Below, in pieces: positions 792-28,844 of a stretch of DNA of 33,431 bases. Numbering within the stretch: the stretch's first letter is position 1; each line of letters opens with the position of its first letter. Position numbers and translations under genes: made by a program. The stretch covers positions 1-33,431 of the forward strand of contig CAUJGC010000515.1 of the NCBI GenBank assembly GCA_963169075.1, given 5' to 3'. Under the pieces are notes generated by a model. The model was not told where the DNA came from and made no database searches. It worked only from the letters and a program-made list of their open reading frames with translations. Source of the stretch: Myxococcota bacterium. Its GTDB lineage: Bacteria; Myxococcota_A; Bradymonadia; Bradymonadales; GCA-2716585.

Positions 792-820
792 TTGTCTCGG
801 GGCGCGGCGTGGCTTATCAT
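792..820 (+). promoter_or_regulatory. Candidate sigma70-like promoter for the gene at 865
   Basis: TTGTCT at 792-797 and TATCAT at 815-820 are separated by 17 nt. The -10 matches the consensus at five of six positions and the -35 at four of six. Transcription would start near 827, leaving a leader of about 38 nt before the ATG at 865. Confidence 0.5.
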
Positions 821-1431: not shown

Positions 1432-2151
1432 GTGCCAGCCCACACCACACACCCCAAGCATCACCCAGCCCCCGAGCGCCCTCAGCAGGTCGCCTTCTAC
1501 GACGTAGACGGCACGCTGGTGAAGGTCAACGTCGTCCATGCCTACGCCTATTACGCGCTGAATCACCCCTCGATTCAGCGCAAGGTGACCGGGCTGGCGA
1601 AGCTGGTCGCCTCCATCCCGGTCTACATGGCTGCGGACTATTACAGCCGGAAGTTCTTCAACGAGTGGTTCTACCAGAACTACGCGGGCTTCAGCGAAGA
1701 CCGCCTGGTCGTCCTCGGGGAGGAGCTCTTCGAGAAGGTGCTGCGCCCGTCGATGTACCCTGGCACGCTGGATCTCATCAAGCGCAGCCGGGACCAGGGC
1801 ATCAAGCAGGTGCTCGTCACCGGCGCGCTGGACGTGGTCATCAAGCCGCTGGCCGAGCACCTCGGCGTGGACGACTACGGCGCCAACACGCTGGAGATCG
1901 TGGACGGCTACGCCACCGGACGCCTGATCGGCCCCCTCCTGGCCGGCCCCAACAAGTCCCAGTGGATCCGCGACTACGCCCGCAAGCACAACGTCAGCCT
2001 GGATGAGTGCTGGGCCTACGCCGACTCCTTCAGCGACATGCCGATGCTCTCCATGGTCGGGCGGCCCTGCGCCGTCAACCCGGACTTCAAGCTCCGCGCG
2101 GCGGCCCGCGACTTCGACTGGCCGGTCCTCCACCTGGAGCACCGGGACTGA
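1432..2151 (+). CDS. HAD-superfamily phosphatase, IB subfamily (SerB-like); probable elb-locus phosphatase
   Basis: The 239-residue protein carries the HAD motifs in order. Motif I is FYDVDGTL with nucleophile Asp24 and acid/base Asp26; motif II is VTG (129-131); motif III is Lys175; motif IV is YADSFSDMPML with Asp198 and Asp202. The helical insert between motifs I and II (about 35-105) is the C1-type cap seen in phosphoserine-phosphatase relatives of class IB. The substrate is probably a small phosphate ester. In this context a phosphorylated lipid intermediate is plausible but inferred. The start is GTG at 1432, with GGGAG eight bases upstream. It is the first gene of the operon, followed by the DUF2088 gene after 95 nt. 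Confidence 0.85.
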   Translation: MPAHTTHPKHHPAPERPQQVAFYDVDGTLVKVNVVHAYAYYALNHPSIQRKVTGLAKLVASIPVYMAADYYSRKFFNEWFYQNYAGFSEDRLVVLGEELFEKVLRPSMYPGTLDLIKRSRDQGIKQVLVTGALDVVIKPLAEHLGVDDYGANTLEIVDGYATGRLIGPLLAGPNKSQWIRDYARKHNVSLDECWAYADSFSDMPMLSMVGRPCAVNPDFKLRAAARDFDWPVLHLEHRD

Positions 2152-2246
2152 AGCCCCGACGCTGCGCCCTCCGCTCTTGACGACCTCCCCTCATCGCGCT
2201 GCGCCGCTTCGCCAGGCCAGCCCAACGACCGCATGGACGCCTCCCT

Positions 2247-3833
2247 ATGACCGATCGCACCTTCCAGAACATCATCTACACCGAGGCGGACAGCCCCGCC
2301 CGCTGGCTCCCCTTCGGCGAGGAGTTCATCGAGGAGCACATGCCGGTGGGGACGCGGGTGATCTTCCCCAACCCGCCCATCGAGGGCCTGGCGAACCCGG
2401 CGGCGGCCATCCGCCACGCCATCAACCACCCCATCGACTGCGAGCCGCTCTACGCCATGCTCAAGCCGGGGATGAAGATCACCATCGCGGTGGATGACAT
2501 CTCCGTCCCCCTCCCCCCCATGGTCCTCCCCGACATCCGCCAGGTCATGCTCGAGATCGTCCTCCAGCTCCTGGCCGACTACGGCGTGGACGACATCCAC
2601 ATCATCATCGCCACGGCCTTCCACCGCCGCATGAGCGGCCCCGAGGTCAAGCGCATGGTGGGGGCGAAGATCTTCGGTGAGTATTGGCCCAAGAAGCTCT
2701 ACAACCTCGACGTCGAGGACCCCGAGCAGATGACCCACCTCGGCGCCACCGAGCTGGGCGAAGAGGTCGAGATCAACCGCCGCGCCGTCGAGTCGGACCT
2801 GGTCATCTACCTCAACCTGAACCTCGTCCCGATGGACGGCGGCCACAAGTCGGTGGCGGTGGGCCTGAGCGGCTACAAGAGCCTGCGCGCCCACCACAAC
2901 CCCGACGCCATCCGCAAGTCCGACTCCTACATGGACCCCTACGCCAGCGAGCTGCACAACAGCGTCAACCGCCAGGGCAAGATCGTCCAGGAGCACGTCA
3001 ACATCTTCACGATCGAGACGATCGTGAACAACCGCATGTACCCCAAAGCGCTCGACTTCTTCCACAAGAACGAGGAGCAGTGGTCCAGCGCCGACCGCGC
3101 CAAGTTCCAGGCCATGAAGTGGGGCCTCTCCCGGATGCCCCGGGCCGCGCGCCGCAAGGTCCTCCACTCCACCCCCGCCCCGCTGGAGCTGATCGGCGTC
3201 TACGCCGGCCGCACCGAGGCCGTCCACAAGCTCACCATCGAGCGCTGCTTCGACCAGTACGCGGTCAAGGTGGACGGGCAGGCCGACATCCTGGTGGTCG
3301 GCATCCCGCACATCTCGCCCTACAACGTCTACTCCATCCTCAACCCGGTCCTGGTGCAGTGCATGGCGCTGGGGTACATCCACAACATGTACCGCGGCAA
3401 GCCGGTCCTCAAGAAGGGCGGCACCCTCATCGTCACGCACCCCTGCTACGACGAGTTCCACGCCGGGCACCACCCCTCCTACATCGAGTTCTTCAACCGC
3501 CTCCTCCCCGAGACGCGGGACGCCCACGTCCTCCAGCGCCGCTACGAGGAGGAGTTCGCCAAGAACCCGAACTATATTCAGATGTTCCGCTTCGGCAACG
3601 CCTACCACGGCGCCCACGCCTTCTACATGTGGTACTGGGGTGAGAACGGCCGCCAGCACGTCGGCCGCGTCATCGCCGCAGGCGCCGAGTCCCCCCACGT
3701 CCCCGAGCGCCTCGGCTGGGAGTGGGCCCCCGACGTCAAGACCGCCCTGGAGATGGCCAAGGAGAGCGCGCCGCCCAGCCCGGACATCACCATGTTCCAC
3801 TTCCCGCCCATCATGATCTGCGACGTCACCTGA
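2247..3833 (+). CDS. LarA-like DUF2088 protein (lactate racemase superfamily)
   Basis: The 528-residue protein resembles LarA, the nickel-pincer racemase, in its N-terminal half. DDISVPLP (83-90) corresponds to the LarA DDxxRPTP region, AFHRRM (124-129) to its ALGxHRxM, and GGHKS (198-202) to its GGxKS lysine that carries the cofactor; His216 and His217 lie about 16 residues further on, as in LarA. The histidine of the LarA VEPH motif is not evident, because that segment reads NLVPMDGGHK. The protein is about 100 residues longer than typical LarA. No larB, larC or larE cofactor gene is in the window. It may be an isomerase or redox enzyme acting on a hydroxy compound, but the reaction is unknown. 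It lies between the HAD phosphatase and the ElbD-like gene, 73 nt before the latter. Confidence 0.75.
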   Translation: MTDRTFQNIIYTEADSPARWLPFGEEFIEEHMPVGTRVIFPNPPIEGLANPAAAIRHAINHPIDCEPLYAMLKPGMKITIAVDDISVPLPPMVLPDIRQVMLEIVLQLLADYGVDDIHIIIATAFHRRMSGPEVKRMVGAKIFGEYWPKKLYNLDVEDPEQMTHLGATELGEEVEINRRAVESDLVIYLNLNLVPMDGGHKSVAVGLSGYKSLRAHHNPDAIRKSDSYMDPYASELHNSVNRQGKIVQEHVNIFTIETIVNNRMYPKALDFFHKNEEQWSSADRAKFQAMKWGLSRMPRAARRKVLHSTPAPLELIGVYAGRTEAVHKLTIERCFDQYAVKVDGQADILVVGIPHISPYNVYSILNPVLVQCMALGYIHNMYRGKPVLKKGGTLIVTHPCYDEFHAGHHPSYIEFFNRLLPETRDAHVLQRRYEEEFAKNPNYIQMFRFGNAYHGAHAFYMWYWGENGRQHVGRVIAAGAESPHVPERLGWEWAPDVKTALEMAKESAPPSPDITMFHFPPIMICDVT

Positions 3834-3906
3834 GCCGCGCCTCGTCCACGCTCCCCAGCCTCTCGCAGCCCGGCCCCAGGGCCCCTTGAACAGGACCGCG
3901 TCCGCT

Positions 3907-6900
3907 ATGTCCTCCGCCTCCGAAGCCACCCTCTCGGTCTACCAGACCCTCCGCGACAAGACCCTCCTCGTCACCGGCTGCACCGGCTTCCTCGGCAAGG
4001 TCTTCACCTCGCTCCTGCTCTACCAGCACCCCGACGTGAAGCGCGTCTACTGCCTCGTCCGCCCCCGCAAGGGCGAGCGGGCCCACGACCGCTTCCTGCG
4101 GGAGTGCGTGGCCTCCCCGGCCTTTCAGCCGCTCCGCGAGCGCCTGGGCGGGGGCCTGGACGCCTTCCTGGCCGAGAAGGTCACCGTCGTCGCAGGCGAC
4201 GTGACCCTCCCGCGCCTCGGCCTCGACGACGAGACGCTGGCGGAGCTGGCGCCGACGCTTGACATCATCATCAACAACGCAGGGCTGACGGATTTCTCGC
4301 CTCCATTGGAGCAGGCCGTCAGCGTCAACACCCGCGGCCCCCTCCACCTCCTGGAGGTCGCCCGGCGCTGCGATCACGCCGCCATCCTCCACACCTCCAC
4401 CTGCTACGTCACCGGCAAGCGCGCCGGCGAGATCCGCGAGGATGAGGTCCCCGTCGGCTTCTACCCCCGACGCGCCGAGCTGGCCCTCCACTTCTCCGCC
4501 GCCCAGGAGCTGGAGGACTGCCTCCAGACCATCGCCCACGTCTACCGCCAGGCCGACGACCAGGAGCGACGCGCCCTCTTCCTCCGCAGCGCCCGCGAGG
4601 CCATCCGCGAGGAGAACCGCAACCCCGAGCACCCCGAGGTCATGGAGGCCGAGCTGCAACGCCAGCGCGGCCGCTGGGTCGAGCGCACCCTCAAAGAGGA
4701 GGGCAACCGCCGCGCCGCCCACTGGGGCTGGACCAACACCTACACCTACTCCAAGTCCATGGGGGAGCAGCTCCTCTGGCAGAACGCCGGCGAGATCCCC
4801 TTCGCCATCGTCCGCCCTGCCGTCGTCGAAGGCTCCATGCGCTACCCCTCGCCGGGATGGAACGAGGGCATCGTCACCTGCGCCCCCATCGCCTACCTCC
4901 TCTACAACGGCTTCCGCTTCGTCCCCACGCGCCCTGAAGTCGTCATGGACATCGTCCCGGTGGACTTCGTGGCCCAGTCCACCATCGCCGCCGCCGCCGC
5001 CCTCCTGACCCGGCGCCACGTCCGCATCTACCAGGTCGCCACCTCCCACAAGAACCCCGTCTCCGTCCGGCGCATGGTGGAGCTCTCCACCCTCTCCAAC
5101 CGCCAGTTCTACGCCAAGCGCACCAGCGAGCCCCGCTGGAAGAACCTCATCATGATGGCCCTGGACAGCGTCGCCGTCGATGAGGACCGCTACAACCGCT
5201 TCTCTGCTCCCGGCGTCCGACGCTACGCCGACGCCGTGGCCTCCTTCGCCGGCGCCGCCCGCAAGTCCGTCCCCGGCCCCCTCGGCGGCCTCTTCAAGGG
5301 CGTCGAGCAGACCGCCCGCCAGGTCGAGAAGCAGTCGCGCCTGGCGCAGATGATCCTCGACATCTTCCTCCCCTTCATCCACGACAACGCCTACACCTTC
5401 CGCTCCGACAGCCTCGCCAACCTCCAGGCGCTGCTGCCCCCGGAGGAGCAGGCCGTGCTGGGCTTCCGCCCCGAGAGCATCGACTGGCGCGACTACTGGC
5501 TCAACGTCGCCATGCCGGGCCTCCACAAGCACGTCTTCCCCCTCATCGACGAGAAGTTCTCCAAGCCCCGCAAGAAACCCTACACCTACCAGGATCTCCT
5601 GGACCTCTTCGACGCCTCCACCGAGAACTACCGCAGCCGCGTCGCCCTCCAGCAGCTCACCGCCGACGGCACCCGCCGCATCACCTACGCCCAGATCCGC
5701 GAGCGCGCCCTCCGGGCCGCCGGCCACCTCCGGGCCGCCGGCCTCCAGGACGGCGACCGCGCCCTCCTCCTGAGCGAGAACCGCCCCGAGTGGGGCATGG
5801 CCTACTTCGGCATCCTCAAGGCCCACGGCGTCGCGGTCCCCGTGGACCACGAGCTCTCGCTCTTCGAGGTGCTCAACATCGCCCGCTCCTGCACCGCCGC
5901 CGCCCTCATCACCTCCGAGAAGGTCCGCCTCCGCCTGGAGGCCGAGGGCTTCACCGACGCCCTCGCCCAGCCCGCCGAAGGCGAGGGCTGGAGCCCGGCG
6001 AGCCTGCGCTGCATGACCCTGGACGCCCTCTTCCTCCCCACCTCCGACGCGGAGGCCGCCCTGGTCCCCACGACCCGGCCCCGCGGCGAGGAGCTGGCGA
6101 GCCTCATCTTCACCTCCGGCACCACCGGGCGCCCCAAGGGCGTCATGCTGGCCCACCGCAACTTCACCTCGCTGCTCACCAGCATCAACCAGGTCTTCGA
6201 CGTCAACCGGCGCGACGGCTTCCTCTCGGTGCTGCCCCTGCACCACACCTTCGAGTTCACCGCCGGGCTCCTCATGCCGATCTCCCGCGGCTCCACGGTG
6301 ACCTACCTCGAAGAGATCAACAGCGACTACCTCAACCGCGCCTTCAGCGAGACGCCCGTCACCGCGCTGGTCGGCGTCCCCGCCCTCTGGCAGCTCCTCC
6401 ACCGCCGCATCACCAGCGAGGTCAAGAGCCGCGGACAGGCCGCCGAGACCGCCTTCAACCTCCTCGTCACCCTGAACCGGGCGCTCCGCGGGCGCTTCAA
6501 CGTGAACCCCGGCAAGACAATCTTTGCCAAAGTTCATGACAAATTCGGTGGAAATATCCGCTATTTCATCAGCGGCGCCGCCTCCCTGCCCGCCCCCATC
6601 CTGGAGACCTTCCAGGGCCTCGGCTTCGAGTTCCTGGAGGGCTACGGCCTGACCGAGGCCGCCCCGGTCCTGGCGGTCAACCGCCCCGGCGCCCTCGCCC
6701 GGCCCGGCAGCGTGGGCCGCGCGCTGCCCGGCGTGGAGGTCCGGATCTTCGAGCCCAACGAGTTCGGTGTCGGGGAGGTCCAGGCCCGCGGCGGCAACGT
6801 CATGCTGGGCTACTGGGACAACCCCGAGGCCACCGCCGCCGCCATGACCGAGGACGGCTGGCTCCGCACCGGGGATCTGGGGCGCCTGGACGACAAGAAG

Positions 6901-8706
6901 CGCCTCTACATCGTCGGCCGCCAGAAGGAGATGATCCTCTCGGCCACCGGCGAGAACGTCTACCCCGACGAGCTGGAGGAGCTCTACGGCGATCACCCCT
7001 GGATCGAGGAGATCTCCATCGTCGGCATCCCCGACGGCAAGGACTCCGAGCGGGTGGCCTGCCTCATCCGCCCCGCCCAGGTGGAGGACACCACGCCGGA
7101 GGAGCTGCGCCTGGAGATCCGCAAGCACCTCGACGTCCAGGGCTCCCGCCTCAACCACTCCCAGCGCATCAAGTTCCTGCGCTTCACCGACGACGCGCTA
7201 CCCCGCACGGCCACCCGCAAGATCCAGCGCCGCAAGGTCGCGGAGCTGCTCCAGGCCGCCGCCGCCGAGGGCAAGGCCCTGGAGGCCGGCGTGAGCCGCG
7301 CCGACGCCTGGGGCCAGGACGCCTGGCTCCGGGATCTGATCGCGGACCTCACCGGGACCGAGCAGGCCCGGATCACCCTCGACAGCGGCCTCACCGACGA
7401 CCTCGGCCTGGACTCGCTGGCCCTCATCGATCTGGCCGCGGGCGTCCGCAAGCAGACCGGCCGCGACCTCTCCACCGACGACCTCCTGGGGGTCGTCACC
7501 CCGCGCGGCATCCTCCAGGCCCTCGCCAGGAGCCAGGCCGACGCCGCCGACGCCGAAGAGCAGCGCAACCGCCCCCTCCCGGGCTACAGCCACCTGCCCC
7601 CGCAGATGCGCCCGCTGGGCTCCACCCGCGTCTCCAGGCCGCTCCTGCTCCCGCGCCTGAGCGACGACGAGATCGAGATCCCCTCCCCCATGCGGGCGGT
7701 CGTCCGGGCGGCGCTCGGGCAGGCCCAGGAGATCGTCTACCGCGACGGCTTCGAGGTGCAGATCTTCGGCCGCTCCAACATCCCCTGGAGCCAGAACGCC
7801 ATCGTGATCGGCAACCACGCCTCCCACCTCGACATGGGGCTGGTGAAGCACGCCCTGCGGGAGTGGGCGCCGGAGCTGGCGACCCTGGCGGCGGCGGACT
7901 ACTTCTTCGACACCCCCGTCAAGCGGGCCTGGTTCGAGAACTTCACCAACGTCATCCCCATGGAGCGCTCCGGCTCGCTGGATCACTCCATGGCCAACGC
8001 CATCCAGAAGGTGCGCGGCGGCAGCCCCCTCCTGATCTTCCCCGAAGGCACCCGATCGACCAACGGCGAGGTCGGGGAGTTCCGGCAGGGGATGGGGTAT
8101 CTGGTGGCGGCGGCGAAGACGGGGGTGCTGCCGATCTACGTCGCAGGCACCCACCGCGCCATGCCCAAGGGCTCGCTCCTCCCCAAGAATCGGCGCCTCC
8201 GGGTCTACATCGGGGAATATCTGCCGTGGAGCTGGTTCGCGGAGCAGACCCGCGACCTCCCCGCCAAGCAGGCCTGGGCCCGCATCGCGGAGCTGACCCG
8301 CGAGGCCGTCCTCGCCCTCAAGGCCGGACGCCGCTTCCTCGACGGCCCCGCCCAGCGCGACGTCAGCGCCCAGGAGCGCGAAGAGGGCGAGCTGCGCGAC
8401 CTCTTCACCTACCTCCAGAGCCGCTTCGTCGAGCGTCAGGTGGACTCCCCCGTGGCCTTCTACTTCTCTCTCGGGGAGGAGGGCTACCACAAGTGGACCG
8501 TCCAGGCCGAGCCCACCCGCTGCACCTTCCTCCAGGGCAAGCCCCCCGGCGGCAAGGCCGACTGCGTGGTCAAGACCGACGCCGCCATGTTCCGCAAGAT
8601 GGTCACCCAGGGCTACGTCCCCTCCATCGATGAGTTCGTGAGCGGCCAGGTCAAGACCAGCGACCCCGCCCTCCTGATGACCTTCCAGACCCTCTTCGGC
8701 TTCTGA
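3907..8706 (+). CDS. elbD: ElbD-like multifunctional lipid enzyme: acyl reductase, AMP-ligase, ACP, PlsC acyltransferase, SCP2
   Basis: Five domains are visible in 1599 residues. First comes a fatty-acyl reductase (NAD_binding_4): TGCTGFLG at 23-30 and the YxxxK pair Tyr279/Lys283. An acyl-AMP ligase follows: FTSGTTGRPKG near 733-743, GYGLTE near 912, WLRTGDLG near 985 and a catalytic lysine near 1105 in TRKIQRRK. The acyl carrier domain has GLDSL with phosphopantetheine Ser1170. The PlsC domain has NHASHLDM with His1304/Asp1309 and FPEGTR at 1378-1383. A sterol-carrier-like domain occupies about 1490-1599. The domain set matches what I recall of myxobacterial ElbD, needed for alkyl ether lipids. 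A likely role is to activate a fatty acid, tether it, reduce it and transfer an acyl chain to a glycerol backbone. ATG 3907 is chosen over an in-frame TTG at 3886; the true start is uncertain. Confidence 0.82.
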   Translation: MSSASEATLSVYQTLRDKTLLVTGCTGFLGKVFTSLLLYQHPDVKRVYCLVRPRKGERAHDRFLRECVASPAFQPLRERLGGGLDAFLAEKVTVVAGDVTLPRLGLDDETLAELAPTLDIIINNAGLTDFSPPLEQAVSVNTRGPLHLLEVARRCDHAAILHTSTCYVTGKRAGEIREDEVPVGFYPRRAELALHFSAAQELEDCLQTIAHVYRQADDQERRALFLRSAREAIREENRNPEHPEVMEAELQRQRGRWVERTLKEEGNRRAAHWGWTNTYTYSKSMGEQLLWQNAGEIPFAIVRPAVVEGSMRYPSPGWNEGIVTCAPIAYLLYNGFRFVPTRPEVVMDIVPVDFVAQSTIAAAAALLTRRHVRIYQVATSHKNPVSVRRMVELSTLSNRQFYAKRTSEPRWKNLIMMALDSVAVDEDRYNRFSAPGVRRYADAVASFAGAARKSVPGPLGGLFKGVEQTARQVEKQSRLAQMILDIFLPFIHDNAYTFRSDSLANLQALLPPEEQAVLGFRPESIDWRDYWLNVAMPGLHKHVFPLIDEKFSKPRKKPYTYQDLLDLFDASTENYRSRVALQQLTADGTRRITYAQIRERALRAAGHLRAAGLQDGDRALLLSENRPEWGMAYFGILKAHGVAVPVDHELSLFEVLNIARSCTAAALITSEKVRLRLEAEGFTDALAQPAEGEGWSPASLRCMTLDALFLPTSDAEAALVPTTRPRGEELASLIFTSGTTGRPKGVMLAHRNFTSLLTSINQVFDVNRRDGFLSVLPLHHTFEFTAGLLMPISRGSTVTYLEEINSDYLNRAFSETPVTALVGVPALWQLLHRRITSEVKSRGQAAETAFNLLVTLNRALRGRFNVNPGKTIFAKVHDKFGGNIRYFISGAASLPAPILETFQGLGFEFLEGYGLTEAAPVLAVNRPGALARPGSVGRALPGVEVRIFEPNEFGVGEVQARGGNVMLGYWDNPEATAAAMTEDGWLRTGDLGRLDDKKRLYIVGRQKEMILSATGENVYPDELEELYGDHPWIEEISIVGIPDGKDSERVACLIRPAQVEDTTPEELRLEIRKHLDVQGSRLNHSQRIKFLRFTDDALPRTATRKIQRRKVAELLQAAAAEGKALEAGVSRADAWGQDAWLRDLIADLTGTEQARITLDSGLTDDLGLDSLALIDLAAGVRKQTGRDLSTDDLLGVVTPRGILQALARSQADAADAEEQRNRPLPGYSHLPPQMRPLGSTRVSRPLLLPRLSDDEIEIPSPMRAVVRAALGQAQEIVYRDGFEVQIFGRSNIPWSQNAIVIGNHASHLDMGLVKHALREWAPELATLAAADYFFDTPVKRAWFENFTNVIPMERSGSLDHSMANAIQKVRGGSPLLIFPEGTRSTNGEVGEFRQGMGYLVAAAKTGVLPIYVAGTHRAMPKGSLLPKNRRLRVYIGEYLPWSWFAEQTRDLPAKQAWARIAELTREAVLALKAGRRFLDGPAQRDVSAQEREEGELRDLFTYLQSRFVERQVDSPVAFYFSLGEEGYHKWTVQAEPTRCTFLQGKPPGGKADCVVKTDAAMFRKMVTQGYVPSIDEFVSGQVKTSDPALLMTFQTLFGF

Positions 8707-8731
8707 GCCCACTGCCCGAGGCGACCTCACC

Positions 8732-10066
8732 ATGACCACCTACCTCGTCACCGGCGGCACCGGCTTCCTGGGCCAGCACCTCGTCCGCCAGCTCCTCCGC
8801 GACGACCAGGCCCAGGTCGTCGTCCTCGCCCGCTCCCGCGACCGCAGCCTGGAGCGCCTCGGCGCGCGCTTCGTCAAGGGCTCCGTCCTCGAACCCGAGG
8901 ACCTCGACGCCGCCCTCCAGGGCGTGGACGGCATCTACCACCTCGCCGGGAAGGTCGAGCGCAACCTGGAGCGCTCCCACACCCTCCACACCCTCCACGT
9001 CACCGGCACCCGCCACGTCATCGAGGCCGCCGGGCGCGCGGGGGTCCGCCGCGTCGTCGTCGCCTCCACCTCCGGCACCGTCGGCGTCACCCGCGACGGC
9101 CACACCATCCCCGACGACCGCGCCGAGCACGCCACCGAGATCGTCAAGGGCTGGCCCTACTACCTCTCCAAGGTCTACGCCGAGCGCGCCGCCATCGCCG
9201 CTGCGCGGCGCGCCAAGGTCGAGCTGATCCTCATGCGCCCCACCCTCCTCCTGGGCCCCGGCGATGAGCGCCTCTCCTCCACCCGCGACGTCAAGCTCTT
9301 CATCGACGGCAAGATCCCCATCGTCCCCCCCGGCGGCATCTCCTTCGTGGACGTCCGCGACACCGCCGCCGCCTTCCGCGCCGCCATGGAGCGCGGCCGC
9401 CCCGGCGCAGCCTACCTCCTCGGCGCCGCCAACATGACCATGGAGGCCTTCTTCGAGCGCCTGGAGAACATCTCCGGCGTCCGCCGCCCCTTCGCCCGCG
9501 TCCCCCAGGGCGCCGCCCTCTTCGGCGCCCGCCTCCTCGACGCCACCCTCAACGCCCTGGGCCGCTCCAGCGACCTCGACCCCATCAGCGTCGAGATGTC
9601 CCAGCACTTCTGGTACATCGACTGGTCCGCCGCCATCCAGGACCTCGGCTTCCAGCCCCGCGATCCCGGCGAGACGCTCTACGACACCGTCCAGTGGCTC
9701 CGCGCCCACGGACAGGCCGCCGAGCGCCGCGCGAAGACCCCGCCCGCCGAGCGCTCCCCCTTCCGCCCCCAGACCCACGCCGACCCCCAGGAGGACGCCG
9801 CCTGGGCCGACGCCCCCTGGAGCCGCCCCGAAAAAGACGCCTGGGGCGAGCCGGCCCCCCGCGACGCGCGCCGACACGAGCGACACGAGCGACACGAGCG
9901 ACCCCACCACGCGCCCACCTCCTACGTCGGCCAGAGCAAGCTCTCCCACGAGGAGATCCTGGGGGACGGCCCGGGCCTGGAGGGCCTCGTCTCGGGCCTC
10001 GGCGGCACCCTCTCCAACGCCCTGGGCGGGCTCATGAAGGGGCGGCGCGGCCACCGCGACGAGTGA
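8732..10066 (+). CDS. NAD(P)-dependent epimerase/3-beta-HSD-like dehydrogenase with a charged C-terminal tail
   Basis: The 444-residue protein is an extended short-chain dehydrogenase. The Rossmann motif GGTGFLG is at residues 8-14 and the catalytic pair Tyr143/Lys147 lies in YYLSK. The catalytic domain ends near residue 330. The last 110 residues are low-complexity and charged, include RHERHERHER, and end in a Gly-Leu-rich helix followed by basic residues; this tail may bind a membrane or partner. The family reduces or oxidises sterol-like or acyl beta-keto substrates. The gene lies 25 nt after the ElbD-like gene, with GAGG nine bases before the ATG, so it probably belongs to the same lipid pathway. 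A role on an alkyl or keto intermediate is inferred. Confidence 0.85.
   Translation: MTTYLVTGGTGFLGQHLVRQLLRDDQAQVVVLARSRDRSLERLGARFVKGSVLEPEDLDAALQGVDGIYHLAGKVERNLERSHTLHTLHVTGTRHVIEAAGRAGVRRVVVASTSGTVGVTRDGHTIPDDRAEHATEIVKGWPYYLSKVYAERAAIAAARRAKVELILMRPTLLLGPGDERLSSTRDVKLFIDGKIPIVPPGGISFVDVRDTAAAFRAAMERGRPGAAYLLGAANMTMEAFFERLENISGVRRPFARVPQGAALFGARLLDATLNALGRSSDLDPISVEMSQHFWYIDWSAAIQDLGFQPRDPGETLYDTVQWLRAHGQAAERRAKTPPAERSPFRPQTHADPQEDAAWADAPWSRPEKDAWGEPAPRDARRHERHERHERPHHAPTSYVGQSKLSHEEILGDGPGLEGLVSGLGGTLSNALGGLMKGRRGHRDE
9872..9902 (+). repeat. Tandem 9-bp repeat inside the dehydrogenase gene
   Basis: Three exact copies of CGACACGAG and a four-base partial copy lie in frame and encode the repeated tripeptide Arg-His-Glu. 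Because the unit is a multiple of three, gain or loss of copies would keep the reading frame. The repeat lies in the non-catalytic tail. Confidence 0.9.
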
Positions 10067-10070
10067 GCCC

Positions 10071-11156
10071 ATGACCACCCGCAGCACCCGCTTCCTCGAC
10101 CGCATCCGCCCCGACTCCATCGTGGACATGCACGTCCACATGCTCAGCCTCGTCGAGGAAGAGGGGAACTACATCAGCAAAGAGCTGCAATCTGGTGTGG
10201 TTTATCAGTATTTGATGCGCAACCTCGGCCTCGCCAACCGCTCCAACCGCGAGCGCGAGCACCACTACGTCCACAAGCTCAAGCTCTGCGTCATGGACGA
10301 CGAGCCCCCCGATCTGGCCGTCCTCCTCGCCCTGGACTGGGTCTACGACGACCAGGGCGAGCGGGACAAGGGGCGCTCCCACCTCGTCGTCTCCAACGAC
10401 ACCGTCCTCCGCGTCTGCCGCGAGCACCCCGAGTTCCTCCCCGCCGCCTCCGTCAACCCCCAGCGCCGCGACGCCTTCGACGAGCTGGAGCGCATGGCCG
10501 AGGCGGGCGCCGTCGCCCTCAAGGTCCTCCCCAACCTCCAGGGCTTCGACCCGGCGAACCCCGCCTACCGCCCCTTCTGGCGCCGCCTCGCGGAGCTGGG
10601 CCTCCCCCTCCTCTCCCACACCGGCTACGAGCACGCCCTCCCCTCCATCAGCGACGACTACGGCGACCCCCGACGCCTCATCCCGGCGCTGGAGGAGGGC
10701 TGCACCGTCATCGCCGCCCACTGCGCCGCCGCGGGCACCTTCCACGCCGTCGAGTACTTCGACCACTTCACCGGGATGCTCCCCCGCTACCCGCGCCTCT
10801 ACGGCGACATCTCCGGCTTCGCCAGCCCGATCCGCCGCACCTACGTCGAGCCCATGCTCGGCAACTCGCTCCGCCGACGGCGCGTCCTGGTCGGCTCCGA
10901 CTTCCCCATCCCCTGCCTCCCGATGGTCTTCCTCAAGGAGCTGGGCCTCAGCAAGGCCCGGGAGCTGGCCTTCGACCCCAACCCCCTGCGCCGCAACGCG
11001 CGCCTCTTCCGCGCCCTCGGCGCGGACGACGAGGTGCTCCAGCGCGCCGCCCGCGTCCTCCTCGGCCTCGACCAGCCCCCGGCGGCGGACGCTGGCGCCG
11101 CCGAGGCCGACGCACCCGCGGCCCCCAGGCCGCGCAGCCGCCGCTTCCGCTCATGA
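10071..11156 (+). CDS. Amidohydrolase-2 family metal-dependent hydrolase/decarboxylase
   Basis: The 361-residue protein fits the amidohydrolase-related family (Amidohydro_2, relatives of ACMSD). It has an HxH pair at His21/His23 in DMHVHM, SHTGYEH and AAHCA segments supplying further metal histidines, and GSDFPIP with the conserved aspartate near the C-terminus. Such proteins hydrolyse or decarboxylate small cyclic or carboxylated compounds; the substrate cannot be read from the sequence. The C-terminal 20 residues are Ala/Pro/Arg-rich. The gene starts 4 nt after the dehydrogenase stop and its own stop overlaps the next start (ATGA at 11153-11156), so translation is probably coupled. Co-transcription with the elb-like genes suggests, but does not show, a shared pathway. 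Confidence 0.8.
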   Translation: MTTRSTRFLDRIRPDSIVDMHVHMLSLVEEEGNYISKELQSGVVYQYLMRNLGLANRSNREREHHYVHKLKLCVMDDEPPDLAVLLALDWVYDDQGERDKGRSHLVVSNDTVLRVCREHPEFLPAASVNPQRRDAFDELERMAEAGAVALKVLPNLQGFDPANPAYRPFWRRLAELGLPLLSHTGYEHALPSISDDYGDPRRLIPALEEGCTVIAAHCAAAGTFHAVEYFDHFTGMLPRYPRLYGDISGFASPIRRTYVEPMLGNSLRRRRVLVGSDFPIPCLPMVFLKELGLSKARELAFDPNPLRRNARLFRALGADDEVLQRAARVLLGLDQPPAADAGAAEADAPAAPRPRSRRFRS

Positions 11157-12805
11157 TCCTCCTCCACCCCCGCATCCTCACCTTCGACCCCCGACGCGCC
11201 ACCCCGGACGATCCCTGGGGCGCCGTCGGCGCCCTCCTCCTCCGCGACGGGCGCGTCCTCCAGGCGGGGGACCCCGCCGCGCTCCTCCCCCTGCGCCTCC
11301 CCGGCGAGCCCGTCGTCGAGCCCGAGGCGGCGGCGATCCTCCCCGGCCTCATCGACACCCACGCGCACCTCCACGGCCTCGGCCTCCGCCTGGACGCCCT
11401 GGAGCGCCCCGACGACACCTCCCCGGCGGCCTGGGCCGACGCCGTCGCGGACCACGCCCGCAGCCTCCGCCCCGGCGCCTGGATCGAGGGGCGGGCCTGG
11501 AACCAGGCCCTCTGGCCCCCAGACGCAGACCTCCACGACGGCTTTCCGACCCATCACCTCCTCTCAGCTGCTGCGCCGGGAAATCCAGTCGTCATCCACC
11601 GCGCCGATCGCCACGCGGTGTGGTGTAACGCGGCGGCCCTCCGGGCGGCGGGCCTCGACCCCGACGCCCCGGCCCCGGCGGACCCCCACGGCGGGCGCAT
11701 CCTGCGACTGAGCGACGGACGACCCAGCGGCGTCTTCATCGACGCCGCCACCGACCTCATCACCGACGCCATCCCCGAGCCCGCCGAGGACGATCTCGTC
11801 GCCCTCATCCGCCACAACGCCCGCCGCTTCCTCGCCGCAGGGATCACCTGCGTCCACTGCGCCCTCATCGAGCCCCACAACCTCCCCGCCTACGAGCGCG
11901 CCCTCTGCGGACCCGACGCGCCGGGCCTCCGGGTCCGCGGCATGGTCTACGCCCCGGCCGAGGAGCTGGCCGCCTGGGCCGACGCCCACCCCCTGCCCCG
12001 CGTCGCCACACCCCACCTCCAGATCAACACCCTCAAGGCCTTCGCAGACGGCGCCCTGGGCTCCCGCGGCGCCTGGCTCCTGGAGCCCTACACCGGCTAC
12101 CCGGACGAGCGCGGCCTCTCGGTCGCCACCCCCGAGGCGCTGCGCGGGCTGGCCGCAGCCGCCGCCCGCGGCGGCTGGCAGCTCGCCACCCACGCCATCG
12201 GGGACCGCGCCATCCGCGAGACGCTCCTCGCCTATGCCAGCGCCGCCGACCCCGAGACCCTCGACCGCCTCCGCTGGCGCGTCGAGCACCTCCAGCACAC
12301 CACCCCCGAGGACCTGGACCTGGCGGCACGCCTCCGGGTCCGCGTCGCCTTCCAGCCGATCCACTGCACCCGGGACATGCGCTGGGCGGAGCGCCTCCTC
12401 GGCCCCGCCCGCTGCGCCTGGGCCTACCCCTGGCGCGCGGCGCTGGATCGCGGCCTCCGCGTCGGCTTCGGCTCGGACTGGCCCATCGAGACGCTGGACC
12501 CCTTCGCCGGCCTCCACGCCGCCCTCACCCGCCAGGACGAGGCCGATCAGCCCCCCGGCGGCTGGAACCCCCACCAGCGCGTCACCCGCCAGGAGGCCCT
12601 GCGGGCCTACACCACCGACGCCGCCGAGCTGCACGCCGCCGACGCCGGACACCTGGGCCGCATCGGCCCCTGCGCGGACCTCGTCGCCCTCTCCGTCGAT
12701 CCCACCACCGCCGCCCCCCGCGAGCTGCTCGGCGCTCGGGTCCGCTGGACCGTCGTTGACGGCGAGACGGCCTGGGGCGCCCCTTGCGGAGCCCCGATCC
12801 CATGA
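11153..12805 (+). CDS. Amidohydrolase-3 family protein (YtcJ-like)
   Basis: The 550-residue protein has the order of motifs seen in YtcJ-type amidohydrolases. These are an N-terminal beta-sandwich segment, DTHAHLHG with His70/His72, a central LKAFADGALGSRGA segment with the bridging lysine, THAIGDRA, WRVEHLQH, and FGSDWPIE with Asp442. Family members hydrolyse amide or similar bonds with one or two metal ions, and most are uncharacterised. The length is normal for the family. The start overlaps the previous stop by 4 nt and the stop overlaps the following lipoprotein start by 4 nt, making a coupled trio at the end of the operon. No signal peptide is visible, so it is probably cytoplasmic. Confidence 0.85.
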   Translation: MILLHPRILTFDPRRATPDDPWGAVGALLLRDGRVLQAGDPAALLPLRLPGEPVVEPEAAAILPGLIDTHAHLHGLGLRLDALERPDDTSPAAWADAVADHARSLRPGAWIEGRAWNQALWPPDADLHDGFPTHHLLSAAAPGNPVVIHRADRHAVWCNAAALRAAGLDPDAPAPADPHGGRILRLSDGRPSGVFIDAATDLITDAIPEPAEDDLVALIRHNARRFLAAGITCVHCALIEPHNLPAYERALCGPDAPGLRVRGMVYAPAEELAAWADAHPLPRVATPHLQINTLKAFADGALGSRGAWLLEPYTGYPDERGLSVATPEALRGLAAAAARGGWQLATHAIGDRAIRETLLAYASAADPETLDRLRWRVEHLQHTTPEDLDLAARLRVRVAFQPIHCTRDMRWAERLLGPARCAWAYPWRAALDRGLRVGFGSDWPIETLDPFAGLHAALTRQDEADQPPGGWNPHQRVTRQEALRAYTTDAAELHAADAGHLGRIGPCADLVALSVDPTTAAPRELLGARVRWTVVDGETAWGAPCGAPIP

Positions 12806-13212
12806 GCCGCCTCCCACGCCCCCTCCCCCTCCCCCTCCTCGCCGCTTCGCTCCTCCTCGCCTTGACCGCTTGCGGCGAAGACGCCGCCCCGGCGGAGGAG
12901 GCCCCCGAGGCGACCTGCGCCTGCCCCGAGGACGTGTGCGCGCCCGGCGAGTGCGTCCTGGTGGTCCAGATCGATCCGGGCTGCGAGGCCGTCTGGGGCG
13001 AGGCCAGCGTCTACCTCCACGACATCAGCAGCAGCGCCGAGCCGGTGGGGACGGTCACCGTGGCGGCGCCCTTCCGCACCTGCGACCCCCTCCCCTCCGG
13101 CGAGCCCTTCACCTTCATCGTCGAGAGCCAGGACGGGCGGCGCGTCTCCCCCAGCGGCCCCTTCACCTGCGCCGGGGACCAGCCCTTCGTCTTCTCCGCC
13201 TCCTGCCAGTGA
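12802..13212 (+). CDS. Small cysteine-rich lipoprotein of unknown function
   Basis: The ATG at 12802 overlaps the TGA of the preceding gene (ATGA), which decides the start over an in-frame TTG at 12784. The 136-residue product has a lipoprotein signal: Arg3 and Arg6, a hydrophobic core and the lipobox LTAC with Cys24. The mature part has an Ala/Glu-rich linker and eight further cysteines, several in the segment CACPEDVCAPGEC, which suggests a disulfide-bonded periplasmic or surface domain. No family is recognised. It is the last gene of the long plus-strand operon and is followed by two stem-loops. Confidence 0.8.
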   Translation: MSRLPRPLPLPLLAASLLLALTACGEDAAPAEEAPEATCACPEDVCAPGECVLVVQIDPGCEAVWGEASVYLHDISSSAEPVGTVTVAAPFRTCDPLPSGEPFTFIVESQDGRRVSPSGPFTCAGDQPFVFSASCQ

Positions 13213-13249
13213 GCCTCCGATAACATCGAGGGCTCAGGGGCGTCGCCCC
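13211..13249 (+). terminator. Two stem-loops after the elb-like operon
   Basis: Directly after the TGA, an 11-bp imperfect hairpin (13211-13235, loop AAC) is followed by a GGGGC/GCCCC hairpin (13237-13249, loop GTC). There is no T-run, as is usual in this GC-rich sequence. Their position between the operon end and the dksA promoter supports a termination or 3'-protection role. Confidence 0.45.
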
Positions 13250-13255
13250 CAGCCC

Positions 13256-13284
13256 TTGCGCGACCGCGTCACAGGCCTTATCTT
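13256..13284 (+). promoter_or_regulatory. Candidate dksA promoter
   Basis: TTGCGC at 13256-13261 and TATCTT at 13279-13284 are spaced by 17 nt. Transcription would start near 13291, giving a leader of about 95 nt to the GTG at 13386. The ATG at 13299 would then be almost leaderless. Confidence 0.45.
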
Positions 13285-13372
13285 GGAGGCCACCACAGAT
13301 GACGCACCGCCGTCCGTTTGCAGGACAGGCCAACGGAGCCCCTCGCTCTGCGCGTCGTCGCACCGCCGACAC

Positions 13373-13378
13373 GGAGGG
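13373..13378 (+). promoter_or_regulatory. Strong ribosome-binding site that fixes the dksA start
   Basis: GGAGGG ends seven bases before GTG 13386. This is the best Shine-Dalgarno match near the gene and outweighs the upstream in-frame ATG at 13299. Confidence 0.75.
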
Positions 13379-13385
13379 AATCGCT

Positions 13386-13898
13386 GTGGAACCGCAACTC
13401 CTGGATTACTTTCGACAAGTCCTGCTCGACGAGCGCAGCCGCATCCTCAACCACGACCCCACCGATCTCAAGGCCGCCATGAAGATCCCCGGGGACGAGA
13501 TGCGCGACGAGACCGATCTGGCCGCCGCCGTCTACAACCAGAGCATGACGCTGCGCCTCCGCGACCGCGAGCGACGCCTCCTCAAGAAGATCGCCTACGC
13601 CCTCGATCTCATCGAGGAGGGCGAGTTCGGCTACTGCGAGCGCTGCGGAGACGCCATCAACGTCGAGCGCCTCAAGGCCCGCCCCGTCACCACCCTCTGC
13701 ATCGAGTGCAAGCAGGCCGAGGAGCGCGACGAGCTGCCCTGGCTCAAGCAGCAGCGCCGCGCCGCAGACACCGCCCTGGACCTGAACGCGCCGCGCGCCC
13801 ACGACGAGTACCAGGACCCCTACAACGTCGTCCGCGGCGAAGACCGCCTCCTGGGCGAGCTGCCCGAGCAGCAGCTCACCTTCGCCCGCGAGGAGTAG
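13386..13898 (+). CDS. dksA: DksA/TraR family RNA-polymerase secondary-channel regulator
   Basis: The 170-residue protein has the DksA plan. A helical pair carries the tip motif DETDLA (41-46), matching DxxDxA, the acidic tip that reaches the polymerase active site. It is followed by a four-cysteine zinc finger (Cys84, Cys87, Cys105, Cys108; spacing C-x2-C-x17-C-x2-C). With ppGpp, such proteins adjust rRNA, amino-acid and stress promoters. A C-terminal extension of about 50 residues after the finger is longer than in E. coli DksA and contains no known motif that I recognise. The last 23 bases overlap, on the opposite strand, the end of the glycosyltransferase gene. Confidence 0.85.
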   Translation: MEPQLLDYFRQVLLDERSRILNHDPTDLKAAMKIPGDEMRDETDLAAAVYNQSMTLRLRDRERRLLKKIAYALDLIEEGEFGYCERCGDAINVERLKARPVTTLCIECKQAEERDELPWLKQQRRAADTALDLNAPRAHDEYQDPYNVVRGEDRLLGELPEQQLTFAREE

Positions 13899-15060
13899 CC
13901 GCCAGGTAGGCGGCCTCGATCTGCGCGAAGCCCAGCGCCTCATCCCAGCGCGCCTCCACGACAGCGCGCGCCGCCCGGCTGCGCGCCGCCGCCGCTGCCG
14001 GAGCCTCCAGCGCCGCCGCCGCCGCCGCCTCCAGCGCCGCCACATCCCCCACCGGCACCAGCACCCCAAGGCGCCCCCCCTCCAGCAGCGCCTCCAGCGG
14101 CGGGATGCGGCTGGCGATCACCGGCGTCTCCATCGCCAGCGCCTCCAGCGCCGCCACCCCGAAGCTCTCCCACCGCGTCGGCGCCCAGAGCATCACCGCC
14201 GCCGCCAGCGCCGCGCGGACCTCCTCCCGGCGCCCCGCCTCGCCGCACCACACCAGACGCCCCTCCAGTCCCAGGCGGCGCGTCAACGCCTCCAGGCGGC
14301 CGCGCTCCGGCCCCTCCCCAAGCACCGCGAAGCGCAGCCCGGGGCGACGCGCGACGAGCCGCGCCGCAGCCTCCACGAAGACCTCCCACCCCTTCTCCGG
14401 CACCAGCCGCCCCACCCCGAGCACCACCGCCGCCTCAGCGCCCAGCCCATGTCGGGCGCGCCACGCCGCGATCTCCGCAGCCTCCACCGACGCCCGACGC
14501 CAGAAGGCCGCCTCCACCCCCGGCCCCACCACCTGCACCCGCGCCGCAGGCGCGATCCCGAGCCGCACCACCTTCTCGGCCTCTGCAGCCGACACCGCGA
14601 AGATCCCGTCGCTCCACCCCCCGGCGGCGCGCTCCAGCGCCAGGTGGACCCGCTCCGCCCACGCCGGGAAGAGCCCCGCCTTCTCGATCGCAAGCCCATG
14701 ATTTGTATGGAAAATACGCCCCACCCCACACGCCCTCGCCGCCCAGCGCCCGATGAACCCCGCCTTCGAGTTGTGCGTATGCACCACGTCGAAGCCCCCA
14801 CGCCGGATCAGCCCCGCCGTCGCCCCAAGCGCCGCCACGTCCCCGCCCAGCGACCACCCCCGCGGGTAGTCCACCTCCTCCACCGCAAAGCCCTGACCGC
14901 GCAGCGCCTCCACATAGCGCGGCGCGTCCGCGAAGGCACGCCCCGAGCACCCAAGCACCACCGCGTGCCCTCGACCCTCCAGCCAGCGCCCCAGCGGCGC
15001 TACGAAGCGCAGCGCCGTCGCAGACTGCGTCGCCAGGTGCAGGACCCGGAGCCCCCTCAC
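13876..15060 (-). CDS. GT4-family glycosyltransferase (GT-B fold)
   Basis: The 394-residue protein begins at GTG 15060, which overlaps the kinase stop (GTGA at 15057-15060). The N-terminal domain has the start LRVLHLATQS, a DVVHTHNSKAG segment and HTNHGL, typical of GT4 acceptor domains. The C-terminal domain has GRLVPEKGWEVFVEA, GEGPERGRLEAL and the ESFGVAALE motif (E-x7-E) that binds the nucleotide-sugar donor. It probably transfers a sugar to a lipid-linked or surface glycan; donor and acceptor are unknown. No signal peptide or membrane helix is seen. It is the last gene of the five-gene minus-strand cluster and runs 23 nt into the convergent dksA gene. Confidence 0.88.
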   Translation of the reverse strand: MRGLRVLHLATQSATALRFVAPLGRWLEGRGHAVVLGCSGRAFADAPRYVEALRGQGFAVEEVDYPRGWSLGGDVAALGATAGLIRRGGFDVVHTHNSKAGFIGRWAARACGVGRIFHTNHGLAIEKAGLFPAWAERVHLALERAAGGWSDGIFAVSAAEAEKVVRLGIAPAARVQVVGPGVEAAFWRRASVEAAEIAAWRARHGLGAEAAVVLGVGRLVPEKGWEVFVEAAARLVARRPGLRFAVLGEGPERGRLEALTRRLGLEGRLVWCGEAGRREEVRAALAAAVMLWAPTRWESFGVAALEALAMETPVIASRIPPLEALLEGGRLGVLVPVGDVAALEAAAAAALEAPAAAAARSRAARAVVEARWDEALGFAQIEAAYLAATPRGRR

Positions 15061-18000
15061 CCCCGCTCCCCCAGGAGCCGCATCGCCCGCGAGCGCATCG
15101 CCCCCGCAAGCTCCCCCTGCGCCTCGGCAGCCAGCCGCCGCAGCGCCGCCTGGCAGTCCTCGTCCGTCACCGGGTGCCCCTCCGCGACGCTCTCCGCCTC
15201 CAGGAGCGCCGACATCGCCTCCGAAGGCGCCCCCCGCAGGTGCAGCGTCAGCGCCAGCCCGATCCGCGCCATCAAGCGATAGGTGCGCGGCGTCTCCTCG
15301 CCCAGGAGCCCTCGCGCGTCCCGGAAGCACCCCCACGCCGCCTCCACCTGCTGCGCCTCCAACCGCGTCCACCCCATGTTCATCAAGGCCAACGCTTGAC
15401 CATGCACATAGCCAACCTGACTCATCACCTCGAAGAACTGATGATAATACCCGTCCGCTTCGGCCAGGCGCCCCGCCTTGCGGGCAGCCTCCCCGCGCCC
15501 GTTGGCGCACATCCCCGCCGTGGCCGCGTCACCGATCGTCGTGAAGAGCTGCTGCGCCTCCCAGAAGACCGCCTCCGCCTCCGCGTAGCGCTCCTCCTTC
15601 AGCGCCGCAGCGCCCTGCTCCCACGCCAGATAGCTGCGCCCCGCCCGATCATCCAGCGCCTCCAGGATGCCCTGCGCGCGCTTCAGGAGGCGCTGCGCCT
15701 CCGCGGCGTCGCCCAGCGTCCGCACGCTCCGCGCCAGCGCCATCAGCGCGTGCGCCTCGCCTTGGGGATCGCTCACCTCCCGATAGATCTGGAGGATGCG
15801 ACGCTGGAGCGCCGCTGCGCTCTGAAGATCGCCCTGGAGCTGTCGGAGCTGCGCCGTCGAGTTGACGAGGTCTGCCTCATCCAGGAGCACCAGCCGGGAG
15901 CGAACCCCCTTGATAGACTTTATCTTCTTCAAATCTTGATATGATTTATCAAGATTTTTAGCTGACAGCTCAAGATCGCCGCGCCGACACTGGATCTGCG
16001 CCATCAGATGGCGCGCCGCGTAGGTGACATGATCGACGACGTCTTCGCGCTGGCTGAGCCCCTCCGCGAGCTGGAGGACCTCGTCGAGGCGCTGCTCCAC
16101 CGAGAGCGCGCAGACCTTCCAGAAGCGCCCCAGCCGCTGCGTGCGCATCGCCCCCGATGGGCTGCTCGCCTGCGCGCTGCAAGCGAGCACGTAGTCTGCC
16201 CACCGCGCGAGGCTCGACGACTCCTTCTTGCGGTAGAGCATGCTCATCAGCACCTCCACCGCGATCAAGAAGCGCTCATCATCAGGCGGCGCCTCCAGCT
16301 CGCGGAGCACGCTCAACGCCGCGTTGACGCTCTGCTCGACCGTATCCCAGGAGGCCTGGATCAGCGCCTGGACCGCCCCCTCGATGCGGACGTCTGCTGC
16401 GGCCAGCCGCGCCGCTCCGGCCCGCCCGCCGCTGCTCGCCCCGGCCTGCAAGAGGCTCTGCGCCGTCGCGTTGGCGAAGGCGACCCGCGCCTCCCGCGAG
16501 GAGGGCCGCGCCGCCAGGACGCCCTGACGTATCAACCCCTCCACGTCCAGGCTGCTCCCCTGAAGCGCCCGCGCGGCCTGCTCGGGCGGGAAGAGCGGCC
16601 CCATGAACGCCAGCACCTCCAGCGCCCAGCGCGCCTTCTCGGGCTCGGGCTGGCGCTCGATCAGCGCCGCCAGCTGGAGCTGCAACACCTGCTCGGGGCT
16701 CTGGGTGGGGAGCGTCGTCACCTGGAGCGCCGGACACCACCCTGCAGGCGTGTCCACCAGCAGCTCACGCTCCACCCACCCCAGCAGCACCTCCCGCGCC
16801 ACCAGCGGGTTGCCCGCCGCCTGGCGGGTCAGGTGCTCGTAGCCCTCCTCCGCGAGCCCCGGCACCAGCGCCGCCGCCAGCTCGCGCACCTCCCCATCCT
16901 CCAGCCTCCCCAGCGTCACCTCGTCCCAGAGCGACGCGCCGCCCAGCGGCGGCGCCGAAGACGCGTCCGTCCAGAGGAAGAGCACAGGCGCCTGCACCTC
17001 CTGCGCGGTCGCCTCCACCCAGCGGGCGACCGCCGCCGCGTCTCGCCCCGCGCCGTCCAGCCACACCTGGCGCGGGCGCGGCGCCGGGTGCGCCGTGCGC
17101 TGCTGCAGCAGCTCACGCCAGCGCACCGCGCCGTCCAGGCCAGGCGCCTCGACCTCGGCCGACACAAGAAAGTCCGCCAGCCCCTGCGCCTCCTCCCCGC
17201 GCCAGTCCAACACCTGCCCGATGCGCTCCATCAGCGGGCGGCGCTCCAGCTGCGGGAGGCGCAGCGCCCGGTGGAGCGCCGCCCGGAGCGCCGCCCCCAG
17301 CGCGCCGTGATCCACCAGGCTGATCTCCAGCGTGCGCATCACCCCATGCTGGTGGAGCAGCTCCGCGAGCCACCCCCCCAGCGTCGTCATCCCGCTCCCC
17401 GCCGCGCCGCGCACCGCCACCACCGCAGGCGCGCGCGTCCGCACGACCCGCTGCACGACCCGCTGCAGCGCCTGCTGCGCCGCGGCGCGCCCCACCAGCG
17501 GCGCCGGACGCAGGCGCAGGAGCGACATCGGCGCCCCCTCCAGGCGACGCCCCGCGGCGAGCGGCGCCTCACCCGGGTCCGCGCCGCGAGGGCGACGCTC
17601 CACCGCCGACGCCATCAACGAGTCCACCGTCTCCGCCACCGCCAGCGCGGGCGCCAGGAGCACGCCCGGCCGCGTCGGCGGCGCCTCCTCCGCCCTCGCC
17701 TCCGCGGCCGCGCCCCACCACGGCTCCCCCTCCAGGCCACGCAGCAGCCGGTTCACCTCCGCCTGGACCTCCACGGCGAACTCGGGGCGCTCGCCGTAGG
17801 GCTTCGCCAGGAGGCGCCCGATCAAGGGCTCCAGTCCCTCGGGCAGCACCTCCGGCATCCCAGGCCCCGGCGTGAGCGGCGGCGGCGGGTGGGCGCAGTG
17901 CTTCACCAGGAGCCCCAACCCCTTGCCTTGAAAGGGTTTCTGGCCGCTGACCAGCTCAAAGAGCGAGATCCCCAGCGCGTAGAGATCCGACGCAGGCCCC

Positions 18001-25263: not shown

Positions 25264-25285
25264 CCGCGCGCTGCGCGCTGCGCGG
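25264..25285 (-). terminator. GC-only hairpin after paralogue 2
   Basis: CCGCGC (25264-25269) and GCGCGG (25280-25285) can pair around a loop made of GCTGCGC-type heptamers, two bases after the stop of the gene at 25288. There is no T-run; it could weaken read-through into paralogue 1. Confidence 0.3.
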
Positions 25286-25287
25286 GG

Positions 25288-25911: not shown

Positions 25912-25938
25912 GGCGTCTTCAGGGAGGAGGGGAGGGGA

Positions 25939-25956
25939 GGCGCCTCTTCAGGCGCC
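25939..25956 (-). terminator. Perfect hairpin between the LexA-like gene and paralogue 2
   Basis: GGCGCCT (25939-25945) and AGGCGCC (25950-25956) form a 7-bp stem with a 4-nt loop, 14 nt after the LexA-like stop and 27 nt before the next start. It could end transcription or lie in the leader of paralogue 2. Confidence 0.4.
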
Positions 25957-25970
25957 GACATCCCCCCACT

Positions 25971-26327: not shown

Positions 26328-26401
26328 AGGTCCTCCCGTGGGGGTTGAGGTGGTGATCCGTCACCCATCACGGGGGAGATTGCACTCTTGTTCAGAGCGT
26401 G

Positions 26402-28692: not shown

Positions 28693-28767
28693 GCGTGCTC
28701 CTTGTCCCCCCGCACACCCTTTACGACGAAGCGACGCGGAGGTCTACCCCTTGCGCGCGCGCTGGCG

Positions 28768-28796: not shown

Positions 28797-28844
28797 AAAG
28801 GGTGGCGGGTGCGAGCATGGGCCCTGAAAGGTGGAGCATCATCA

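Follow-up and report, generated by a model that had tools for sequence, protein, structure and literature searches.

The stretch of DNA considered here (the window, 33,431 nucleotides of contig CAUJGC010000515.1 from a Myxococcota bacterium) carries four consecutive plus-strand genes at 1432-10066 which, judging by their content and order, are an elb operon without elbA, i.e., an ordinary addition to a known operon family. The gene elbB (1432..2151) encodes a protein of 239 amino acids (aa), a HAD-IB phosphatase of the SerB / TIGR01490-like type; elbC (2247..3833, 528 aa), a LarA-family protein of the LarAH14/15/16 groups, which is a candidate nickel-pincer nucleotide (NPN) enzyme with a single catalytic histidine; elbD (3886..8706, 1606 aa), a fusion of fatty acyl reductase, acyl-AMP ligase, acyl carrier, PlsC acyltransferase and an SCP2-like domain; and elbE (8732..10066, 444 aa), an NAD-dependent epimerase/dehydratase, namely, an HpnA-like short-chain dehydrogenase/reductase (SDR). 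The genes are separated by 95, 52 and 25 bases. The start of elbD is TTG at 3886, with an alternative in-frame ATG at 3907. The initial annotation, made from the letters alone, had named four consecutive genes on this strand for a phosphatase, a LarA-like protein, an ElbD-like fusion and an SDR; the positions and strand of the open reading frames (ORFs) agree with it, and the domain calls are borne out by profile searches.

ElbB, found as an ORF with a profile match, gives PF12710 (HAD) at 3.9e-35 and exceeds the cut-off of TIGR01490; its translation contains all of the motifs DVDGT, TGA, NK and DSFSD. The profile domains of ElbD are NAD_binding_4/Sterile, AMP-binding, PP-binding and Acyltransferase, and the corresponding motifs can be read in the protein: GCTGFLG and YTYSK in the reductase, TSGTTGRPKG in the ligase, GLDSL in the carrier, and NHASHLD and FPEGTRS in the acyltransferase. 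ElbE is assigned by profile to the Epimerase/HpnA-like SDRs, and its YxxxK motif is present as YYLSK.

The lipid-binding SCP2-like tail of ElbD (8377..8706, plus strand), which the initial annotation had recognised correctly, is weak at the sequence level (0.14 in the window protein and at best 0.001 among four homologues), and a PDB sequence search with the tail alone gave no match. In the predicted model, however, the blocks from residue 221 of the modelled part onward have a local confidence score (pLDDT) of ~80-90; in fold, the tail resembles SCP2 proteins and the SCP2-like domain of alkylsulfatases, with 1-dodecanol bound in one of these relatives. A domain binding a long-chain alcohol would suit a fusion that produces such an alcohol. 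The PlsC part of the ElbD model (pLDDT mostly <50) was excluded from use. The tail occurs in some lineages and is absent from the Myxococcus copy of ElbD.

Kinship with the Myxococcus elb operon

The elb operon known from Myxococcus xanthus (MIBiG BGC0000871, encoding ElbA-ElbE; Lorenzen et al. 2014, summarised in PMC9131029 and PMC9426513) includes elbA for an NAD epimerase, elbB for a HAD protein, elbC of unknown function, elbD for a FAR-ACS-ACP-acyltransferase, and elbE for another NAD epimerase (PMC9131029, 2022 review). ElbD and ElbE mutants of M. xanthus lose ether lipids (PMC9131029). The match of the window to this locus, proposed in the initial annotation, holds. In Myxococcus sp. CA023, the contig labelled L168 in our set of loci carries A-B-C-D-E at 8209-9189, 9238-9945, 9959-11569, 11566-15990 and 15987-17015; its B, C, D and E proteins match those of the window over most of their length, and the order elbB-elbC-elbD-elbE, the comparison of which had been recommended, is identical. 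The two loci thus have in common the order, the strand and the core domain set of ElbD. The differences are that the window has no elbA in front and two amidohydrolase genes after elbE, and that its ElbD has 1606 aa with the extra SCP2-like tail compared to 1474 aa in L168.

An unbiased comparison of all ORFs near elbC in 134 loci yielded only B, C, D and E as strongly conserved or widely common neighbours. Among the 131 distinct loci, elbB precedes elbC by at most 1 kb, on the same strand, in 107/124 cases, and elbD follows elbC within 2.5 kb in 78/111; the distance from elbD to a following elbE is at most 1 kb in 62/72. Chance grouping is excluded, for dozens of loci in several phyla carry these four genes in an identical order. 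An elbA-like gene was found near elbC in only ~22 of the 134 loci; elbA is considered uninvolved in ether lipid synthesis, and its insertion had no effect in M. xanthus (PMC9131029). Because of this rarity and of the insertion result, elbA is not treated here as a defining gene. An apparent elbB-elbC gene fusion in two loci (L050 and L052) proved to be an artefact, with a stop codon between both genes. The carriers of ElbC include Blastocatellia/Pyrinomonadaceae, and the complete elb operon has been reported for several subdivision-4 Acidobacteria genomes (PMC10087280). From the gene set, we infer that the organism of the window produces alkyl ether lipids.

ElbC and its tie to ElbD

The ElbC protein of the window matches Lar_N at 5.6e-38. 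With the NCBIfam model NF052592 (cut-off 740 bits), named ‘NPN-dependent hydroxyacid isomerase, LarAH14/15/16 family’ and equal to groups 14-16 of PMC7583248, it scores 810 bits, and the Myxococcus ElbC scores 849 bits. The predicted model has a mean pLDDT of 89.7; the closest solved sequences and folds are 9q3k and 9q3j, single-histidine LarA-like nickel-pincer enzymes.

The active site was compared at the LarA reference positions, namely, the cofactor Lys184, the nickel His200, the ribose Asp, the catalytic His108 and His174, and Arg75. In the window, D84 is the ribose Asp, H126 the catalytic His, K201 the cofactor Lys and H217 the nickel His; all four are invariant in 127/127 ElbC sequences. 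The place of the second catalytic histidine, His174, is occupied by N192 in the window; this position, with an alignment gap nearby, holds Asn in 115, Thr in 11 and Ser in 1 of the 127 sequences, and none of them has any His between residues 184 and 198. At the Arg75 place the window has V87, and the whole set has Leu, Val or Met (127/127); in known LarAs this arginine binds the NPN phosphate and the substrate carboxylate (PMC12611868). A canonical two-histidine hydroxyacid racemase or epimerase was considered for ElbC and rejected, both His174 and the carboxylate-binding Arg75 being absent.

In the two solved relatives 9q3j and 9q3k (Blautia wexlerae, Streptococcus plurextorum; PMC12611868) the second histidine is also replaced, as it is, mostly by Asn, in ElbC, and the cofactor Lys and the nickel His are kept in both groups. 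The similarity has its bounds: the identity is ~20%, an invariant Asn in place of His174 is a trait of LarA_Sp/LarA_Bw compared to 115/127 in ElbC, and ElbC has a hydrophobic residue at their Lys78/Arg75 site, so that the Lys in place of Arg75, which is a trait of LarA_Sp/LarA_Bw, is found in 0/127 ElbC sequences (Leu/Val/Met instead). The gene context of these enzymes is sugar metabolism, whereas that of ElbC is lipid synthesis. ElbC is a strong candidate for carrying NPN; rather than being an ordinary hydroxyacid racemase, it probably transfers a hydride by means of NPN, as a member of the ElbD pathway.

The co-occurrence was studied in 188 genomes of the phylum Myxococcota (denoted G with a number), with near-full-length ElbC being counted. 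Those contigs of the sample with public names belong to metagenome-assembled genomes of Kofleriaceae, Polyangiaceae and Myxococcales. ElbC is present in 55/188 genomes; ElbD accompanies it in 55/55, compared to 1/133 of the genomes without ElbC. For two drafts (G068 and G151), ElbD was counted from pieces at contig ends; the sole ElbD genome without ElbC (G183) is also a draft, in which ElbD begins at a contig edge. Six families (f4, f10, f11, f13, f18 and f21) include both carriers and non-carriers, and the C and D genes are always present or absent together in them. In approximately ten genomes elbB-elbC are separated from elbD, yet elbD is found elsewhere in the same genome. Considering these mixed families and the retention of unlinked elbD, it is hard to invoke shared ancestry or hitch-hiking alone. 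By these counts, the LarA-like protein goes obligately with ElbD; the initial annotation had recognised neither this nor its status as a nickel-pincer candidate.

Six genomes without ElbC (G094, G099, G123, G128, G130 and G166) have a stand-alone ElbD-like reductase with 33-36% identity over residues ~5-570, and in three of these (G123, G130 and G166) a separate ligase is located within 10 kb of it. Such a reductase may represent a related pathway with unfused enzymes and no LarA protein.

The genes for NPN synthesis accompany ElbC as well. LarC was found in 52/55 and LarE in 53/55 of the carriers; the exceptions (G072, G081 and G151) are drafts, whose close relatives have both. Outside the sample, where larC only was examined, LarC is present in 26/27 further ElbC genomes, including Acidobacteriota and a metagenome-assembled genome of Cyanobacteria. 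In the genome of the window itself, larB and larC are adjacent on one contig, and larE is present.

The ether bond and competing explanations

In our view the locus is likely to be an elb operon that serves the synthesis of alkyl-ether glycerolipids, with ElbC being an NPN-dependent enzyme of the same pathway. On the basis of the domains and of M. xanthus genetics, ElbD would activate a fatty acid, load its own carrier domain and reduce the chain to a fatty aldehyde or alcohol; acylation would fall to the PlsC domain of ElbD, and ElbE would perform a ketone/alcohol redox step. ElbC would move a hydride on a lipid or glycerol-backbone intermediate without any hydroxyacid racemisation; hydride transfer is preferred to racemisation because ElbC has an intact cofactor site but has lost both the second His and the Arg that binds the carboxylate. 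ElbB, the gene of which usually adjoins that of ElbC, would probably strip phosphate from this intermediate. That ElbC acts somewhere in the lipid pathway is quite probable; that it acts at the ether-forming step itself is rather unlikely. The boldest version, in which ElbC itself would catalyse ether formation in the aerobic ElbD pathway by hydride borrowing, we regard as improbable. NPN would then accept a hydride from the fatty alcohol, or from a donor equivalent to it, the resulting aldehyde would join a glycerol hydroxyl, and the return of the hydride would give the alkyl ether.

Several points weigh against the assignment of ElbC to an NPN-dependent step of ether lipid synthesis. The sampled genomes are related, and thus the P value of the co-occurrence assumes more independence than there is. 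In M. xanthus, elbD alone was enough for a partial rescue of an elbB insertion (PMC9131029), and for this reason ElbB and ElbC may not be strictly required. Genomes without ElbC also commonly have LarC (84/133) and LarE (82/133), so that the presence of these genes alone is weak evidence; a sharper test is provided by the 22 genomes where ElbC is the only Lar_N protein, 21 of which have both LarC and LarE. The family bears the name of a hydroxyacid isomerase, yet the Frankia LarAH14 was inactive on all hydroxyacids tried (PMC7583248); the inactivity also fits a non-hydroxyacid substrate, and Desguin et al. (PMC7583248) suggested that such LarA proteins may run another hydride-mediated reaction. 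A caution on the ether lipids themselves comes from Pontiella, in which ElbD homologues occur but ether lipids were not detected (PMC11868695). Finally, the genome of the window has an AGPS-like flavoprotein gene on another contig (G000:C467:9465-11111), and its product could make the ether bond.

The chemistry of AGPS is established for the animal enzyme, and a route through AGPS is the main rival for the ether bond. ElbD would supply only the fatty alcohol, an AGPS-like flavoenzyme encoded elsewhere would swap this alcohol into acyl-dihydroxyacetone phosphate (acyl-DHAP), ElbE would reduce the ketone, and ElbC would be left with a side role. We take this possibility seriously, while placing it somewhat below an even chance. 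The best solved relatives of the AGPS-like protein of this genome are alkyl-DHAP synthases (2uuu, 6.6e-68), and the HHHG motif is present; matches at E<=1e-40 occur in 41/55 ElbC genomes, but such genes are common without ElbC too (68/133). In M. xanthus, the loss of the AGPS homologue MXAN_1676 has a minor effect, whereas the loss of elbD is severe (PMC9131029). In the search at 1e-5, G169 gave no AGPS match, and four other ElbBCDE genomes (G126, G047, G082 and G174) gave only weak matches to FAD oxidases. Since several ElbBCDE genomes thus have no convincing homologue, AGPS cannot be the universal ether-forming enzyme of the pathway, if all these organisms make ethers. The MXAN_1676-1674 AGPS operon and the animal FAR1-GNPAT-AGPS route follow the same logic of a reductase and an acyltransferase as elb does; the difference is that AGPS lies outside the cluster of the window.

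The AGPS-like gene of this genome is followed by an FAD-binding ORF that looks GlcE-like by sequence (L174:439-3311 for the pair, on contig G000:C467). Another contig of the genome encodes a CarF-like desaturase with a clear PF10520 match and 173 bits for NF045946 against the cut-off of 500; the protein being well below this cut-off, plasmalogens cannot be claimed.

The three remaining explanations concern ElbC or the product of the cluster. ElbB could dephosphorylate a phosphoglycerate-like acid and ElbC epimerise or isomerise it, so that a backbone or head group is passed to ElbD; the LarA-family enzymes of known activity all act on 2-hydroxyacids (PMC7583248, PMC11770544), and ElbB is a SerB-like phosphatase whose gene usually adjoins elbC. 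The second catalytic His and the carboxylate-binding Arg, however, are absent in all ElbC sequences, and the Frankia protein was inactive as described above, which makes such a polar building block unlikely. Still less probable is a fatty-acid-derived product other than an ether lipid: the Pontiella homologues speak for it, while the completeness of the B-C-D-E set of the window, ordered as in Myxococcus, and the loss of ether lipids in the M. xanthus mutants speak against. ElbC could also be a scaffold protein without NPN, either non-catalytic or differently catalytic, considering that the position of the NPN-phosphate-binding Arg/Lys is hydrophobic and that NPN is assigned to ElbC from sequence and fold. 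We find this very unlikely, since the cofactor Lys, the nickel His, the ribose Asp and one catalytic His are invariant, and the genomes with ElbC as the sole Lar_N protein keep larC and larE.

Many of the 84 LarC genomes without ElbC have no Lar_N protein at all, so that other proteins in this phylum may make use of NPN or of part of its synthesis.

Flanking genes and significance

Downstream of the operon, an amidohydrolase gene (Amidohydro_2, 10071..11156, plus strand) starts 4 bases past elbE, and a second one (Amidohydro_3, 11153..12805, plus strand) overlaps it. The elb transcription unit probably extends into both; they lie outside the conserved cluster, and their homologues were not found near elbC in the other loci compared. 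The ‘one good promoter’ of the initial annotation is a sigma-70-like match at 792..820 (plus strand), which is a consensus match only, weak at 9/12, and sits ~610 bases upstream of elbB. By profile search, a NUDIX gene on the minus strand precedes position 1432. Rfam and tRNA searches of the window gave no matches.

Farther downstream, 13299-13895 (+) encodes a DksA/TraR-type zinc finger protein extended by ~35 residues at the N-terminus and ~55 at the C-terminus, 13879-15510 (-) a group 1 glycosyltransferase, and 18622-19809 (-) a DUF4384 protein. Two large proteins combine an N-terminal Ser/Thr kinase with TPR (15060-18611, minus strand; 28695-32447, plus strand), and one of them also has an AAA domain; this architecture is typical of myxobacterial signalling. 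The region 19850-26345 contains ORFs on both strands that gave no Pfam match at 0.001 in the frames tried.

What is new here is that elbC of the whole elb family emerges as a nickel-pincer candidate tied to ElbD in at least two phyla. We found no paper linking LarA or NPN with ether lipids, although most subscription journals, including Lorenzen 2014, were outside the search. For bacteria with ElbD, the question is how the ether bond is formed, AGPS being dispensable for most of it in M. xanthus; for the single-histidine LarA proteins, the structures of which have been solved, it is which reaction they catalyse. The pairing of ElbC with ElbD joins both problems. If the assignment of ElbC is true, the ether lipids of myxobacteria would depend on nickel and on larB, larC and larE, and the same would apply to the ether lipids of Blastocatellia, which are relevant to branched-tetraether climate proxies. 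If ElbC also proved to work by hydride borrowing, it would be the first NPN enzyme other than a hydroxyacid isomerase, and the elb pathway a third ether-lipid route beside AGPS and PlsA/Ger. ElbC offers a testable candidate for a missing step of the pathway.

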